A stretch of DNA of 64,000 nucleotides, taken from NCBI GenBank assembly GCA_902777835.1, contig CACYVC010000012.1, positions 48,401 through 112,400 of the forward strand, written 5' to 3'. The stretch is from an uncultured Bacteroidales bacterium (lineage in GTDB: Bacteria; Bacteroidota; Bacteroidia; Bacteroidales; Muribaculaceae). A program made the position numbers and the translations under genes. This document shows, in pieces, positions 52,345 to 57,902 of the stretch (positions are counted from its first letter, which is position 1; every line of letters starts with the position of its first letter). The notes beneath the pieces are model-generated. The model saw only the letters and a list, made by a program, of their open reading frames with translations. It had not been told where the DNA came from and ran no database searches.

Positions 52345-53257
52345 ATATATCATTTTATCACTCTTAACCATAATGGTAGCAACTGTCTTCACTGCTTGCC
52401 GCGACAAGAACAAGAGCGACGAAGATGATCAGCCACAAGTCATTAGAAGCAACGACGAGTTGAAGCCCTCAGCGCAAGACGTGCTCAATGCACCACAACA
52501 GCTCAAAAGTTCGCTCAATGCCCTCGCCAATGACATCAACGACGGTTTTGACGAGATAACAAGTATTGAGCAAACGATCGACGACACCGACATCTCTCAA
52601 CTCTCGCAAAGCAAAAGGGCAAAGTTGCGTAACAACATCCTGCTAATGAAGAGTACAATTCAGGACCGACGCAAAACACTCTCAGACCTTGAAGACGACC
52701 TCGAAAATCTCGACGAGAAGAGCAAGGTCGAAGCGGAGCAGACCATAAACAATCTGCGGCAACAACTTGACTTTCAAAAGACTAGAATCAACCAGCTAAG
52801 CACGAAGCTAAATTACTCTGCTCCAAAACCAAAAAACCATGACGAAGCTACCGACTCCATAGTGGTCAACAACCAATCAAACAAAACAGCGCAAAAAGTC
52901 ACCGAGGAAGAACACCAACAAAAGGAGCAGCGCGAAATGCTCAACAAAGAGCTAAATGAGTGCTACTATGTTATAGGCTCCAGAGAGGAGCTGAAAAACC
53001 GCAAAATAATCGACTCGGAGTTCCTGAAAAAGACTAAGGTAATGCAAAGCGGGAACTTATTAATATCCTATTTCACCAAAGCCGACAAGCGCACCCTCAG
53101 CGAGATTACAATACCCAGTAAGAAATTCACTATAATCACCAACCACGACCAATCGTCTTTCTCCACCGAAGAAACCGAAGATAAGACTTTAATCAAAATA
53201 CTTGACCCAGCCTCTTTTTGGGAGTATAGCAACTACCTCGTGGTGATAATCGAATGA
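52331..53257 (+). CDS. Coiled-coil lipoprotein
   Basis: 308 residues. Lipobox FTAC near Cys23. Residues about 45-160 are a strongly charged coiled coil ('LRNNILLMKSTIQDRRKTLSDLEDDLENLDEKSKVEAEQTINNLRQQLDFQKTRINQL'), then a globular C-terminal part with 'ECYYVIGSREELKNRKII' and 'FTKADKRTLSEITIPSKKFTIITNHDQSSF'. This pattern is common in Bacteroidales lipoproteins with unknown function. Start at 52331 follows the lipoprotein signal; it overlaps rsmI by 14 nt. Confidence 0.82.
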   Translation: MRTLRYIILSLLTIMVATVFTACRDKNKSDEDDQPQVIRSNDELKPSAQDVLNAPQQLKSSLNALANDINDGFDEITSIEQTIDDTDISQLSQSKRAKLRNNILLMKSTIQDRRKTLSDLEDDLENLDEKSKVEAEQTINNLRQQLDFQKTRINQLSTKLNYSAPKPKNHDEATDSIVVNNQSNKTAQKVTEEEHQQKEQREMLNKELNECYYVIGSREELKNRKIIDSEFLKKTKVMQSGNLLISYFTKADKRTLSEITIPSKKFTIITNHDQSSFSTEETEDKTLIKILDPASFWEYSNYLVVIIE

Positions 53258-53283
53258 GGGAAAACCGCATTGCTACACACTTC

Positions 53284-54399
53284 ATGAAAATAGTAATCGC
53301 CATCGACAAGTTCAAAGGTAGCGCCACCAGCCAGCAGCTCTTGCAAGCTATAGGCGAGGAGATTTCACGCCTTTGCCCTGATGCGCAGGTAGTGGCAGTG
53401 CCCATTGCCGATGGCGGCGACGGCACAATGCAATGTATCAAGAGCATCTTCGGCAATAGAGCCACCACATGCAGCGTGAACGTGACTGCACCGTTGCAGC
53501 ATCTACCACAAGTTGAGGCTCAATATATCATCGATGGCGACACAGCCTATATGGACCTATCCACAGCTAGCGGACTGGCATTGGTGCCTGATGACTGCCG
53601 CAACGTGATGATGGCCAGCACCTTTGGCACTGGAGAAATGATTGCCCACGCCATCAACAAAGGCGCAAGGCACATAGTGCTTGGACTTGGCGGCAGCGCC
53701 ACTTGTGATGGAGGAACAGGCATTCTCACTGCTTTAGGATTCAAGTTCCTCGACAAGGAGGGAAATCTTCTGTCGCCATGTGGCGAAAGTCTTGCAAAAA
53801 TATCACGCATTGATGGCGATAAGGTTGATGTCAATGTGCTTAACACAAAATTCACTCTACTGAGCGATGTTGATAATCCACTATATGGCGATAATGGAGC
53901 TGCTTACATCTTTGCTCCGCAAAAAGGGGCATCACAGCAGCAAGTAGAGCGGCTTGACGAAGGCCTCAGGCATTTTGCCACACTGCTGCCACCTCACATC
54001 GCCAACCTACCAGGGGCAGGAGCTGCTGGAGGTGTAACAGCAGGGATGATGGCCTTGCTTAATGCCACCATCAAACCAGGCATCGACACCCTGCTCCAGC
54101 TTGCACATTTCGACGACATCATCGGCGATGCTCACCTCATCATCACCGGGGAGGGACGCATCGACAACCAAACTCTCCACGGCAAAGCGCCAGCAGGAGT
54201 GCTGAAAGCAGCAAAGAAAAAAGGAATACCAGTAATTGCATTATGCGGATGCATAGCACCAAGCACCGATACCACCAAAATGGGGTTCAAACAAGTGATT
54301 GAAGTTACACCACCCGAGATGCCTTTAGACCAAGCCCTCAACTCCGAGGTGACTCTGTGCAATGTCAAAGTTGCTATAAGCGGAATACTATTTGGTTGA
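53284..54399 (+). CDS. glxK: Glycerate 2-kinase
   Basis: 371 residues. Phosphorylates D-glycerate in glyoxylate/serine breakdown. 'MKIVIAIDKFKGSATSQQLLQAIGEEI', 'VPIADGGDGTMQCI', 'MASTFGTGEMIAHAINKGARHIVLGLGGSATCDGGTG' and 'LIITGEGRIDNQTLHGKAPAGVLKAAK' match family GlxK/GarK. The ATG at 53284 fits the family start; an ATG at 53254 overlapping the previous stop (ATGA) is possible. Confidence 0.93.
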   Translation: MKIVIAIDKFKGSATSQQLLQAIGEEISRLCPDAQVVAVPIADGGDGTMQCIKSIFGNRATTCSVNVTAPLQHLPQVEAQYIIDGDTAYMDLSTASGLALVPDDCRNVMMASTFGTGEMIAHAINKGARHIVLGLGGSATCDGGTGILTALGFKFLDKEGNLLSPCGESLAKISRIDGDKVDVNVLNTKFTLLSDVDNPLYGDNGAAYIFAPQKGASQQQVERLDEGLRHFATLLPPHIANLPGAGAAGGVTAGMMALLNATIKPGIDTLLQLAHFDDIIGDAHLIITGEGRIDNQTLHGKAPAGVLKAAKKKGIPVIALCGCIAPSTDTTKMGFKQVIEVTPPEMPLDQALNSEVTLCNVKVAISGILFG

Positions 54400-54501: not shown

Positions 54502-54533
54502 TTTGTAAAAGTGAAAAACTTTTTTTATATTTG
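54502..54533 (+). promoter_or_regulatory. Promoter of the lipoprotein-radical SAM operon
   Basis: TTTG (54502-54505), 20 nt, TATATTTG (54526-54533). The first ATG at 54566 is about 28 nt after the expected start. No other promoter is seen before the radical SAM gene. Confidence 0.75.
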
Positions 54534-54565
54534 CGTGCTAATTATGTCCATCTAGATTCTCAGCT

Positions 54566-54877
54566 ATGAAAAATGTAAGTTTTAGTGTCAAGAAATGGTC
54601 GATACGTGCTTTAGTTGCGATTGGTGCCTTGCTTGGCATCTCAGCTTGTTGTCACACAAAAAAAGTGGTAGAAGATGACAACTATAACTATAACCATAAC
54701 AGCACGCCTCCGATTCATAATCTCAAGTATGGTCCACTCGTTGATATAAGAAAGTCGCGTACAGCAACGATTAAAAAGCGCATCGATGAGAATGGCAATG
54801 TTGTATATGATACTATTCAGAACGAAATACTCTCAGACCCGCCAGTGATCAAACCTCTACATATAGAAGATGAATAA
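54566..54877 (+). CDS. Putative rSAM-modified lipoprotein 1 (degenerate motif)
   Basis: 103 residues. N-terminus with Lys10, Trp11, Arg14, Gly20, Gly24 and lipobox Cys28 at exactly the positions of the next two proteins. After a Asn/Tyr-rich stretch it has 'KYGPLVDI' (Tyr55), a weakened form of the VYGPP motif, and a C-terminal part with 'ENGNVVYDTIQNEI'. Probably a membrane-anchored substrate, or diverged relative, of the radical SAM enzyme 0.6 kb downstream (inference). First gene of the four-gene unit. Confidence 0.75.
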   Translation: MKNVSFSVKKWSIRALVAIGALLGISACCHTKKVVEDDNYNYNHNSTPPIHNLKYGPLVDIRKSRTATIKKRIDENGNVVYDTIQNEILSDPPVIKPLHIEDE

Positions 54878-54879
54878 TC

Positions 54880-55134
54880 ATGAAAAAACTGAATTTTAAT
54901 GTTCATAAATGGGGCGTGCGTGCATTGGTTGCCATTGGTACGATGCTTGGCATTTCGTCATGCACCCATAAGGTTGGCCCTAATCCCGCCGAAGGCGTGT
55001 ATGGTCCTCCTCCAGGTTACTCCCCTCATAGGGTAGATGTGATTGAAGACGTTTATGGTCCTCCAGTAGAGGAGATAGACAGCATTAGAGCAACAGATAA
55101 GCCAGAGTTGAAAAAGAATAAAGATTCTGAATAA
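54880..55134 (+). CDS. Putative rSAM-modified lipoprotein 2 (two VYGPP motifs)
   Basis: 84 residues. Signal/lipobox region 'HKWGVRALVAIGTMLGISSC' aligns without gaps to its neighbours. The mature 56 residues contain GVYGPPP (Tyr41) and DVYGPPVEEID (Tyr59), both preceded by Glu or Asp-Val. Starts 2 nt after lipoprotein 1 and its stop shares a base with the next ATG. The repeated short motif on a lipid-anchored peptide next to a radical SAM/SPASM enzyme marks it as a candidate modified precursor. Confidence 0.8.
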   Translation: MKKLNFNVHKWGVRALVAIGTMLGISSCTHKVGPNPAEGVYGPPPGYSPHRVDVIEDVYGPPVEEIDSIRATDKPELKKNKDSE

Positions 55135-55457
55135 TGAAGAAATCGACATTCATAATAAAAAAATGGCTGGTGCGTGGACTGGTAGTTGTTGGCGCTTTGA
55201 TAGGCGTGACGTCTTGCCATCACGCTAAAAAGCACCACAGCAGTGATGCCGACGAAAGCCTCTCAAGCTCAGCAACCAGCGAGGTCAGTGATGTAAGTGA
55301 TGTGAGCGTAGTTGAGGATGTTTATGGTCCGCCTATTGAAGATATTAGCGAGGTAGAGGTTGTATATGGTCCTCCTTCTTATTTCGAAGACCAAGAAGCC
55401 AAGCCCGCTATTATCGATGAGCCTCAACCATCTGAAAGCAACAAAAAAGCGAAATAA
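55134..55457 (+). CDS. Putative rSAM-modified lipoprotein 3 (two VYGPP motifs)
   Basis: 107 residues. Same 28-residue N-terminus ('KKWLVRGLVVVGALIGVTSC'), then a His/Ser-rich part (HHAKKHHSS), an acidic Ser-Asp-Val repeat (SEVSDVSDVSVVED) and two motifs: DVYGPPIEDIS (Tyr64) and VVYGPPSYFED (Tyr78). Its stop codon shares one base (TAATG) with the radical SAM start, so the two are translated in strict coupling. Candidate substrate of that enzyme. Confidence 0.82.
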   Translation: MKKSTFIIKKWLVRGLVVVGALIGVTSCHHAKKHHSSDADESLSSSATSEVSDVSDVSVVEDVYGPPIEDISEVEVVYGPPSYFEDQEAKPAIIDEPQPSESNKKAK

Positions 55458-56524
55458 TGAACACTCGCCAGCTTATTGACTTTGAAAACACGCGCCGCGA
55501 GCGCCGATGGCTTGAGAAGAATCATCCACTGAGGCAGTTGTTCTGGGAGTGCACACTGCGATGCAACCTCTCATGCCGACATTGTGGCAGCGACTGCCGC
55601 AAGGTGTCGGTAACGCCCGATATGCCTCTTGAGCATTTCCTGCCTGTTCTCGATGATGTGGCAACGATGATTGACCCCAAGAAAGTACTGGTCAATACAG
55701 TGGGCGGTGAACCTCTTGTGCGCCCCGACATTGTGAAATGTGGCAAGGCTATCACCGACCGAGGATTTCTATGGGGCTTCGTGACCAACGGCGTGCTGCT
55801 CACCGAGCAGATGCTTCGCGACGTGCTTAATGCAGGGCTACGCACCGTGGCTGTGAGCCTCGACGGACTCGAGACGGAGCACAACTGGCTTCGTGGTGGG
55901 TCATTTGACGGAGCGATGAGCGCTGTGAAACTCCTTACCCGCACACGCAACCTGCTGTGGGACGTGATTACCTGCGTCAATCAGCGTAACTTCTCCACCT
56001 TGCCTCAGCTCAAGCAGTATCTTATCAATGCTGGCGTGACTAAATGGCGCATCTTCACCATCTTTCCACAAGGCAGGGCAAAACTTAACAATGAGCTTTA
56101 TCTAAGTCCTGAGCAATATGTGGAACTCATGGACTTCATCGCTGCCACACGCAAAGAGGGCGAGATTAACCTATCCTACAGCTGCGAAGGCTTTCTCGGC
56201 GACTATGAGGGAGTAGTGAGAGGTCACATCTTCCGCTGCGATGCAGGCACAATGACAGCGTCGATATTTGCCAACGGCGACATCAGCGGTTGCCTGAGCA
56301 TTCGCTCGCATTACAATCAAGGCAATATCTACCACGACCGTTTCAGCGACGTGTGGAACAACCGCTTTGAGCAGATGCGCAACCGCCGATGGATGAAACA
56401 TGACGAGTGCGCCAAATGCAAGGTGTGGGACTGGTGCGCCGGAGGCCCCTTCCATCTGCGTGACGATGACGGCAAGATGATGCATTGCAACTATCTAACT
56501 ATCTGCGAAGCAAAGAAATCATAG
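55457..56524 (+). CDS. Radical SAM/SPASM enzyme of a lipoprotein-modification system
   Basis: 355 residues. Radical SAM core with Cys36-x3-Cys40-x2-Cys43 binding the first 4Fe-4S cluster, GGEP at 83-86 and 'VAVSLDGLETEHNWLRG' near 131-147. C-terminal SPASM domain with Cys261, 279, 318, 321, 327, 344 and 350, enough for two auxiliary clusters. SPASM enzymes generally modify ribosomally made peptides (established). I recall a catalogued pairing of such an enzyme with lipoproteins in Bacteroidales (TIGR04133 with TIGR04134, from memory); the chemistry is not known to me. One-base overlap with lipoprotein 3. Confidence 0.9.
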   Translation: MNTRQLIDFENTRRERRWLEKNHPLRQLFWECTLRCNLSCRHCGSDCRKVSVTPDMPLEHFLPVLDDVATMIDPKKVLVNTVGGEPLVRPDIVKCGKAITDRGFLWGFVTNGVLLTEQMLRDVLNAGLRTVAVSLDGLETEHNWLRGGSFDGAMSAVKLLTRTRNLLWDVITCVNQRNFSTLPQLKQYLINAGVTKWRIFTIFPQGRAKLNNELYLSPEQYVELMDFIAATRKEGEINLSYSCEGFLGDYEGVVRGHIFRCDAGTMTASIFANGDISGCLSIRSHYNQGNIYHDRFSDVWNNRFEQMRNRRWMKHDECAKCKVWDWCAGGPFHLRDDDGKMMHCNYLTICEAKKS

Positions 56525-56554
56525 GTGAGAGGGAAGAGTGAGAGGGAAGAGTTC

Positions 56555-56596
56555 CCGACCCACGATCCACGAACAACGATAAACGAACAACGACAA
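56555..56596. repeat. Heptad-phased tandem repeat, six units (CGA class)
   Basis: CCGACCC, ACGATCC, ACGAACA, ACGATAA, ACGAACA, ACGACAA in strict 7-nt register, 10 nt before the ATG at 56607. Purine-rich 7-nt units (GAGGGAA-like) precede it. Confidence 0.8.
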
Positions 56597-56606
56597 ACTA
56601 TTTTTT

Positions 56607-57902
56607 ATGAAGAGATTACTTGTTGCACTTGTGGCGATGACGTGTGTGAGCCTAATGGCAATGGCGCAGTCGTCAAGTCACCAGTATGTGACTGTGGTGG
56701 CTGAACCTGACCATGCCGACTGGACCTATCACACTGGTGAGACAGCACATTTCACAGCCTACGCCATCAAGGAAAACGTGCGCATGCGCGACACCGAAAT
56801 CACCTACAGCTATGGTCCCGACAAACTCGATGCTGTCTTCACCAAGACCATCAAAACCGACCGCAACGGTGTGGCGCACTTCGATGTGCCAGGAGCCAAA
56901 ACACCAGGCTTCACCAGCGTGAGAGTGAAGGTGCTGCTCGACGGCCACAGCTACAGTTCGATGACAAATATCGCCTTCGACCCTTATAACATAAAGCCAA
57001 CCACTACTATGCCCGATGACTTTGAGCAGTTTTGGAACGACGCTATGCTCAAGGCTTCAAAGATACCCATGCAGCCCACACTGCGCCACAGCGACGAGGA
57101 GAGCAACGACAAGGTTGATGTATATTACCTGCGCCTGCAGTCTTACAAAAAAGGAAACTATGTGTATGGCGTGCTCACAGTGCCCAAGACAGCAGGCCGC
57201 AAACCCGCAATACTGCGTCTGCCTGGCGCTGCCGTGCGCTCGTTTAATGGTCCAAACGAGCTAGCCTACGAAGGATTTGTTGTACTGGAGATTGGCGTGC
57301 ATGGCATTCCTGTTGACCAAGACAAGGAGATTTACCGCCAACTTGAGGCTGGCGCATTGGCTGGATATACCACCATTGGCATCGACAATCGCGACACCTA
57401 TTATTACAAGCGTTCCATCTTGGGATGTGTACGTGCTGTTGATTACCTATGCACACGCGACGACGTTGACTCCACACGCATCGCCACCTATGGCGGCAGT
57501 CAGGGAGGCATGCTGTCAGTTATGACAGCTGCATTGAGTCCGCACATCAGTGCGTTGTTTGCCTATTTCCCTGCTTTCTGCGATCTCACGGGCTACTACA
57601 ATGGCCGCGGCGCAGGGTGGCCGCATCTATTTAAAAATCCCAATGAGCCAAATATTAAGGCACGCATGGAAGTGTCGCGATATTACGACACGGTGAACTT
57701 CGCCCGCATTCTGCAAGCGCCAGGTTTTTATGCTTGGGGGTTCAACGACCCTGCTTGCTGCCCCACCTCAACTTTCAGTGCTTACAACGTGATAACCGCC
57801 CCCAAACAACTCCAAATAGGCCGAGACACAGGCCACTGGCTCTACCCTTGGCAAGTGGAGAACGCCATGAAGTGGCTAAAGGCCCAATTCCACATGGAAT
57901 AG
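56607..57902 (+). CDS. Acetylxylan esterase family (CE7-like) secreted esterase
   Basis: 431 residues. Signal peptide (1-20, ending AMAQ), an N-terminal beta-sandwich (about 25-130, 'TVVAEPDHADWTYHTGETAHF'), then an AXE1 alpha/beta-hydrolase domain (about 135-431). Nucleophile Ser in YGGSQGG (near residue 302), 'RDTYYYKRSILGCVRAVDYL' typical of CE7, late Asp ('GFNDPACCPTS') and His ('DTGHWLYP'). Removes acetyl groups from xylan oligomers, probably in the periplasm. No SusC/D or glycoside hydrolase nearby. Confidence 0.9.
   Translation: MKRLLVALVAMTCVSLMAMAQSSSHQYVTVVAEPDHADWTYHTGETAHFTAYAIKENVRMRDTEITYSYGPDKLDAVFTKTIKTDRNGVAHFDVPGAKTPGFTSVRVKVLLDGHSYSSMTNIAFDPYNIKPTTTMPDDFEQFWNDAMLKASKIPMQPTLRHSDEESNDKVDVYYLRLQSYKKGNYVYGVLTVPKTAGRKPAILRLPGAAVRSFNGPNELAYEGFVVLEIGVHGIPVDQDKEIYRQLEAGALAGYTTIGIDNRDTYYYKRSILGCVRAVDYLCTRDDVDSTRIATYGGSQGGMLSVMTAALSPHISALFAYFPAFCDLTGYYNGRGAGWPHLFKNPNEPNIKARMEVSRYYDTVNFARILQAPGFYAWGFNDPACCPTSTFSAYNVITAPKQLQIGRDTGHWLYPWQVENAMKWLKAQFHME

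Follow-up and report, generated by a model that had tools for sequence, protein, structure and literature searches.

What does a radical S-adenosylmethionine (SAM) enzyme do to the small lipoproteins with which it is encoded? An operon at positions 54,502–56,524 of a 64,000-nucleotide stretch of contig CACYVC010000012.1 (the window), from an uncultured Bacteroidales bacterium of the Muribaculaceae, raises this question. In it three lipoprotein genes, here called LipoA, LipoB and LipoC, are followed by the gene for a radical SAM/SPASM enzyme, with intergenic distances of +2, −1 and −1 nucleotides (Table 1). An earlier note, made from the sequence alone, had described this layout and an upstream promoter; the open reading frames (ORFs) were confirmed, and the promoter matches the Bacteroidota pattern. 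We argue here that the enzyme is on balance probably splicease-like, and that it would excise tyramine from X-Tyr-Gly (XYG) sites of the lipoproteins in the cytosol, before export, to yield membrane-anchored ketoamides that are plausibly protease inhibitors.

The subfamily of the enzyme is clear from its score of 482.7 bits against TIGR04133 (rSAM_w_lipo; curated cut-off 425; residues 4–346), and a Pfam search returned Radical_SAM and SPASM and no further domain, as the radical SAM/SPASM assignment in the earlier note had it. There is no signal-like stretch at the N-terminus. The radical SAM cysteines are C36, C40 and C43 (CX3CX2C); they and C47, C243, C261, C279, C318, C321, C327 and C344 occur in every one of the 77 enzymes aligned, four of which score below the TIGR04133 cut-off (from loci L074, L076, L078 and L080; L numbers denote sampled enzyme loci). 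The AlphaFold2 (AF2) model is confident, with a pTM of 0.91 (pLDDT in Table 1), and its top Foldseek ranks are SuiB, anSME, a sactipeptide enzyme (5why), BlsE, PqqE, SkfB and ChlB, while a PDB sequence search returned seven general radical SAM relatives with BlsE the best. Because BlsE is not a peptide enzyme, the fold indicates a radical SAM/SPASM protein and says nothing on its chemistry.

The three lipoproteins each have a signal-peptide-like N-terminus with a lipobox-like Cys at residue 28, and between them they carry five XYG sites; the lipid-anchored product previously envisaged appears right. Two VYGPP motifs had been pointed out in each of two lipoproteins, and they are indeed present in LipoB and LipoC; as a description of the system, VYGPP is too narrow, since LipoA has a KYGPL site that had not been credited and the wider XYG-(x)-P fits more architecture classes. 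We therefore dropped VYGPP as the defining motif. Judged on sequence, the shared motif is X-Tyr-Gly-(x)-Pro in exported-like proteins adjoining the enzymes, with VYGPP as its local form. A degenerate VYGPP DNA pattern has four matches in the genome from which the window comes (2.89 Mb, 90% complete), namely the four operon sites, but a backwards-read control also has four (three forward, one reverse); the number of matches thus says little, whereas their location is informative. When LipoB was searched against the same genome (E up to 10), nothing beyond the three operon proteins came up.

To ask how regularly the motif accompanies the enzyme, we took enzyme loci with a tblastn score of at least 200 bits (n = 122, ten of them below the TIGR04133 cut-off); 116 have 500 nucleotides upstream, and many hold 1.5 kb on each side. 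Five duplicate loci (L093, L114, L115, L116, L118) were removed for the automatic-rule count and the pair-pattern scan, and kept in the strict-lipobox count, the behind-Cys class and the 36-lipoprotein alignment described below. By the automatic rule, an exported-like ORF on the same strand with YG and a close Pro lies within 2.5 kb at 99 of 116 loci, so the layout recurs, as had been suggested, and the enzyme does not usually occur without such proteins. The same feature is found in 137 of 436 same-strand exported-like ORFs as against nine of 341 opposite-strand ones, which were drawn from all 122 loci. A scan with no preset motif, covering 1600 residue-pair patterns in 428 same-strand exported-like ORFs near the 122 loci, placed YG at the top (183 versus 71 expected), followed by Y..P and G.P, while on the opposite strand YG occurred in 35 of 331 ORFs versus 31 expected. 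A strict lipobox rule gave YGxP in 110 of 154 upstream ORFs (shuffle mean 2.4, maximum 7) and in only two of 218 lipobox ORFs at other places in these loci; one of the two, from L137, is a VYGPP protein that itself lies close to an enzyme. This rule was positive at 82 of 119 loci, and it overlooked visible lipoproteins in L001, L003, L007, L023, L042 and L045 as well as an annotated one in L120. Among the 17 loci negative by the automatic rule, L023, L048, L055 and L067 nonetheless have a YGxP lipoprotein, and L095, L101, L103 and L109 have at least one protein with YG and no Pro within three residues after the Gly, leaving nine negatives. Since the loci are related to one another, all these counts are descriptive. 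They make the Tyr-Gly site the likely target of the enzyme, in line with the Tyr site singled out before.

The partner proteins are of several architectures. In 26 sites XYG stands directly behind the lipobox Cys, with Pro at +3 in 26 of 26 (X is Cys in this class by definition, hence not evidence). In other settings it precedes carboxypeptidase-regulatory-like domains (TIGR04134 type; Pfam matches on two) or occurs in short lipoproteins like those of the window. Across sites the position of Pro drifts, as in YGxP, YGPRP and YGVRQRP. The genome itself has a second TIGR04133 locus (L031). The reading that it is partnerless was rejected, since partner-like proteins lie downstream in it and its relatives (25 ORFs in 16 of 19 loci compared). 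These have a signal-like N-terminus and a linker with MYG, KYG, RYG, LYG or VYG, then a domain: of eight tested, five matched the acyl-carrier family PF00550 (one marginally, at 21.2 bits versus a cut-off of 20.8), two matched TonB_C (PF03544) and one had no match. They share the XYG site and the enzyme; several are without a Pro close behind. The acyl-carrier form is seen at L031:5572-6129 (−) in the window's own genome (G000:C5) and similarly at L091, L092, L102 and L107; an exported acyl-carrier domain would be odd. The TonB_C form is seen at L095:2599-3219 and L108:803-1474 (−), and L101, L103 and L109 have TonB-type partners by resemblance to these two. Non-lipoprotein forms with YGxP just behind a signal-peptidase-I-like site (AQYGAP, AQYGVP) lie downstream at L032 and L038 and upstream at L036.

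Why Tyr-Gly should matter to such an enzyme is suggested by the PlpXY splicease of Pleurocapsa. According to PMC10533398, PlpXY acts on XYG with loss of C8H9NO (135.0757 Da), turning X into an alpha-keto-beta-amino residue; its natural sites are MYG and LYG, and two FtsZ tags that it accepts contain GYGLP (its Table 1) and fit XYGxP. The text of that paper leads us to infer that the FtsZ tags derive from the PlpA2 core. PMC11002830 places PlpX in a subclass (IPR026482) of the SPASM radical SAM enzymes and describes PlpY as a truncated RRE. The likeness to the operon is a radical SAM/SPASM enzyme adjoining X-Tyr-Gly proteins, X-Tyr-Gly-x-Pro included. The differences are that the window substrates are lipoproteins with a Sec-type signal peptide and not a Nif11 or NHLP leader, that the operon is without a PlpY-like gene, that one SPASM Cys is missing and that five sites are spread over three proteins.

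Relatives of the enzyme extend the association. After TIGR04133 its next NCBIfam match is TIGR04103 (nif11-class maturase 3), ahead of the WgkB, DynA and PapB models (80.7, 66.3 and 59.7 bits). A Nostoc plasmid enzyme that belongs to TIGR04103 (853.1 bits, cut-off 725) lies behind a Nif11 precursor ending ALYGLPPELF. Small ORFs of other relatives contain LYGTPP (L157) or PYGVA, AYGAA and LYGVG (L154, L155), DUF1843 peptides of Azospirillum and Aureibacter contain LYGGA, PYGVA, PYGPA and PYGAG, and an unannotated Agathobacter ORF beside a relative has MYGTG. About 1.5 kb downstream of the start of a distant-relative enzyme (L085/L159) lies a protein of 214 aa in which KYGYPC occurs five times and KYGYPG once, and which resembles a multi-site precursor. 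The L157 protein is precursor-like, of 165 aa and ending RLLYGTPPVPLYQAPSK, its ORF running from 563 to about 65 nucleotides upstream of the matched enzyme start; its L156 equivalent ends TVLYMAHSK, with Met for Gly. DUF1843-type peptides beside TIGR03913-type enzymes (L145, L146, L148, L154, L155) have Tyr-Gly near the N-terminus, some with Tyr-Ala or Tyr-Met. At L161–L165 a conserved small upstream partner, [KR]PSEKFFDM[VI]REQV, stands in place of a YG precursor.

In a tree of 45 enzymes, with one TIGR04103 row above cut-off, a branch with 100/99 support separates TIGR04133 and these relatives from MftC, NirJ, PqqE, TIGR04053, TIGR04347 and three further radical SAM proteins, which puts the window enzyme on the same side as the TIGR04103 enzyme. 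The TIGR03913 GDL-motif maturases with DUF1843 peptides are alike in having a related enzyme by the tree and small Tyr-Gly neighbours, and differ in that their peptides are short and without a lipobox, with Tyr-Gly-x-x or sometimes Tyr-Ala or Tyr-Met. G44, S45 and W197 occur in 25 of 25 TIGR04133-group rows and nine of nine relatives, as against 0/8, 1/8 and 1/8 of the others, and G245 in 92%, 9/9 and 1/8, respectively, these columns having been chosen after the fact with L082–L084 left out. The latter loci have HCTC, YCTC or HCSC in place of HCGS behind the radical SAM Cys. The substrate site of mycofactocin MftC is a C-terminal Val-Tyr; it is without Gly, and MftC lies on the other side of the 100/99 branch. 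MftC is otherwise comparable, as a radical SAM enzyme whose target is a Tyr in a ribosomal peptide (PMC8326336).

The catalogued TIGR04133/TIGR04134 pairing, also proposed earlier, holds for the enzyme and fails for the proteins: the lipoprotein genes lie directly upstream of an enzyme that passes the TIGR04133 cut-off, but TIGR04134 (cut-off 39.8) gave no match to LipoA, LipoB or LipoC at E up to 1. The model does match two lipoproteins adjoining other TIGR04133 genes (43.7 and 207.1 bits), and both have YGxP at or behind the lipobox, as in the window; the window lipoproteins differ in being short, with one or two XYG sites each and no regulatory-like domain found. A TIGR04134 scan of the own genome found nothing, weak evidence by itself as the model was silent in 14 of 14 control genomes too, and of 99 genomes sampled from the phylum 16 gave weak matches, none of them over the cut-off. 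Both models are of the ‘hypoth_equivalog’ type. In the open-licence PMC literature we found no paper that names TIGR04133 or TIGR04134 and no product for the pair, nor any that joins ketoamide, radical SAM and Bacteroid, or lipoprotein and cyclophane.

Signal peptides normally conserve composition and not individual residues. An alignment of 36 different window-type lipoproteins, anchored at the lipobox Cys, nonetheless has K-18, R-14, G-8 and G-4 in 36 of 36 and W-17 in 29 (C0 is invariant by construction and is not evidence). Among 28 pairs of within-operon paralogues the signal peptides have an identity of 0.49 versus 0.30 for the mature parts (23% minus the YGPP letters) and are the better conserved part in 27. 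The window supplies only two lipoproteins as a signal-peptide background, too few to use. Because four positions before the Cys are invariant, the signal peptide may double as a leader, recognised by the enzyme before export.

Taken with the computed operon, enzyme family, XYG pairing, signal-peptide positions and relation to TIGR04103- and TIGR03913-type enzymes, several with Tyr-Gly precursors, these features lead us to infer the following chemistry and order of events. The pre-lipoprotein would be translated and bound by the enzyme in the cytosol through its N-terminal signal peptide acting as leader. Tyramine would then be excised at each XYG behind the lipobox, leaving a peptidyl alpha-ketoamide followed by Gly-Pro, and the modified protein would undergo Sec export, lipidation and Lol sorting. 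The predicted products are electrophilic and anchored in the membrane; LipoA would carry a single alpha-ketoamide residue, LipoB and LipoC two each. In such a peptidyl alpha-ketoamide X takes the P1 position and Gly P1', an arrangement known as a reversible warhead against Ser and Cys proteases. With Val in LipoB and LipoC and Lys in LipoA at P1, the product would plausibly inhibit elastase-like and trypsin-like proteases at the cell surface. Across the 69 sites of the 36 window-type lipoproteins X is Val in 61, Lys in six, Ala in one and Leu in one, a composition that, we conjecture, would direct the product against those two protease types. PMC11117315 and PMC11002830 cite spliceotide products as inhibitors of proteases.

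A number of observations weigh against a splicease. The score of 132.4 bits against TIGR04103 is far below that model's cut-off of 725, and the heme b synthase (122.9) and TIGR04053 (117.5) models follow close behind. The fourth Cys of the SPASM CX2CX5CX3C (the second of CX3C) is missing in the enzyme and present in the Nostoc TIGR04103 enzyme. That TIGR04103 is the subclass of PlpX is our presumption, and PlpX is not among the enzymes of the tree, in which the TIGR04133 stem is long (1.44), as are several outgroup branches, and the relatives form one clade in just 42% of bootstrap trees. L082–L084 group with TIGR04133 (100/100) without a convincing XYG partner. No partner was seen at TIGR04133 loci L028, L033, L047, L053, L070, L098, L129 and L136, the only partner of L081 is 2.9 kb distant, and L077 and L081 carry CYA in place of CYG. 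The loci are moreover not phylogenetically independent, near-duplicates such as L110/L130 remaining. Of 12 TIGR04103-like places in sampled genomes of the phylum, four have a YG precursor, one a YM precursor and seven none (L158, L160–L165); no Tyr-Gly partner was seen at L086 and L087, translation of two Tropicibacter neighbours of a TIGR03913-type enzyme gave no Tyr-Gly peptide, and some DUF1843 peptides carry YA or YM. No PlpY-like small gene was found in the operon (RRE models were not run by name), and its proteins show neither a Nif11 nor an NHLP leader. Protease inhibition is a conjecture drawn from citations in other papers. Finally, two LYGLP tags in FtsZ and most GYG tags were left unmodified at the positions tried (PMC10533398, Table 1), so that site context matters for PlpXY.

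The motif and pairing evidence would hold for any Tyr-directed chemistry, and the same Tyr-Gly site could undergo another radical reaction without excision, such as Tyr side-chain cleavage, dehydrogenation, beta-hydroxylation or epimerisation of an adjacent residue, still giving a modified lipoprotein. Several relatives with YA or YM instead of YG, and an auxiliary-cluster Cys pattern unlike that of TIGR04103, agree with such a reaction. We regard it as unlikely: Gly after Tyr is the top-ranked pair at the enzyme loci, and the studied enzyme described there as acting on XYG excises tyramine (PMC10533398; PMC11002830).

The earlier note had proposed a Tyr crosslink or C-C bond, of the cyclophane type, within VYGPP. 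Peptide C-C crosslinking does occur among SPASM enzymes, and SuiB is the closest solved fold to the enzyme model. A crosslink would need its partner residue at constant spacing, but across classes just Tyr and Gly are fixed, X varies (Cys, Glu, Val, Lys, Met, Leu and others) and Pro drifts, and the WgkB, DynA and PapB models score below TIGR04103 on the enzyme. The proposal thus finds no support, and we think it quite improbable; because Gly after Tyr is the most enriched pair and Pro drifts, the splicease motif X-Tyr-Gly appears, on sequence grounds, to fit better than a crosslink of fixed spacing. Least probable of all, in our estimation, is that XYGxP is merely a sorting, surface-anchoring or binding motif and that the enzyme acts elsewhere. 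Some enzyme loci, L082–L084 among them, do lack a visible XYG partner, yet the motif follows the enzyme, YGxP being rare in lipobox ORFs elsewhere in the loci (2/218), and related enzymes with non-lipoprotein precursors have Tyr-Gly beside them as well.

Table 1. Features of the operon in the window (window coordinates; XYG, X-Tyr-Gly).
Feature	Position	Strand	Basis or match
Promoter, Bacteroidota type, TTTG-N20-TATATTTG	54502..54533	+	Pattern match
LipoA, 103 aa lipoprotein, one XYG site (KYGPL)	54566..54877	+	No Pfam/NCBIfam match at cut-off
LipoA signal peptide and lipobox Cys28, with K-18, R-14, G-8, G-4; proposed leader/recognition element	54566..54649	+	
LipoA KYGPL site, X = Lys	54725..54739	+	
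LipoB, 84 aa lipoprotein, two VYGPP sites	54880..55134	+	No Pfam/NCBIfam match at cut-off
LipoB signal peptide and lipobox Cys28	54880..54963	+	
LipoB VYGPP site 1	54997..55011	+	
LipoB VYGPP site 2	55051..55065	+	
LipoC, 107 aa lipoprotein, two VYGPP sites	55134..55457	+	No Pfam/NCBIfam match at cut-off
LipoC signal peptide and lipobox Cys28	55134..55217	+	
LipoC VYGPP site 1	55320..55334	+	
LipoC VYGPP site 2	55362..55376	+	
TIGR04133 radical SAM/SPASM enzyme, 355 aa	55457..56524	+	TIGR04133; Pfam Radical_SAM + SPASM; AF2 pLDDT 94.2

The promoter pattern, with the consensus TTTG-N19-21-TAnnTTTG, has seven matches in the window versus 0.88 expected. The operon is flanked by genes for a glycerate kinase (53254-54399) upstream and an acetyl xylan esterase-like protein (56607-57902) downstream, neither of which is counted into the system. 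In the gap between the enzyme and the esterase (56525-56606) short words are repeated (GAGAGGGAAGAGT, GAACAACGA).

TIGR04133 exceeds its cut-off in 61 genomes from a sample of 295 within the order. A search of relatives gave 28 of 61, 25 of which (the own genome and G001–G024) also belong to the sample of 295. The nearest related enzyme loci are 95, 93 and 92% identical, and 15 titled related loci come from Muribaculaceae, Prevotellaceae, Porphyromonadaceae and unnamed Bacteroidales assemblies, several from buffalo, yak or deer gut. In named records the enzyme–lipoprotein pair is annotated in the gut commensal Parabacteroides distasonis, as WP_036633130.1 with WP_005853865.1, and in Treponema saccharophilum.

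We tentatively suggest, as a possibility that falls short of being probable, that such a system is widespread in Bacteroidota: a splicease-like enzyme would read the Sec/lipoprotein signal peptide as leader and install alpha-ketoamides before membrane anchoring, the target protease would depend on the residue that precedes Tyr, and the carriers would include lipoproteins, TonB_C proteins and acyl-carrier-domain proteins. If this is true, protein splicing that forms beta-amino acids would be part of envelope biology in this bacterial order, a signal peptide would serve as the leader of a ribosomally synthesised and post-translationally modified peptide (RiPP), and its product, a ketoamide anchored in the membrane, would be of the protease-warhead kind.

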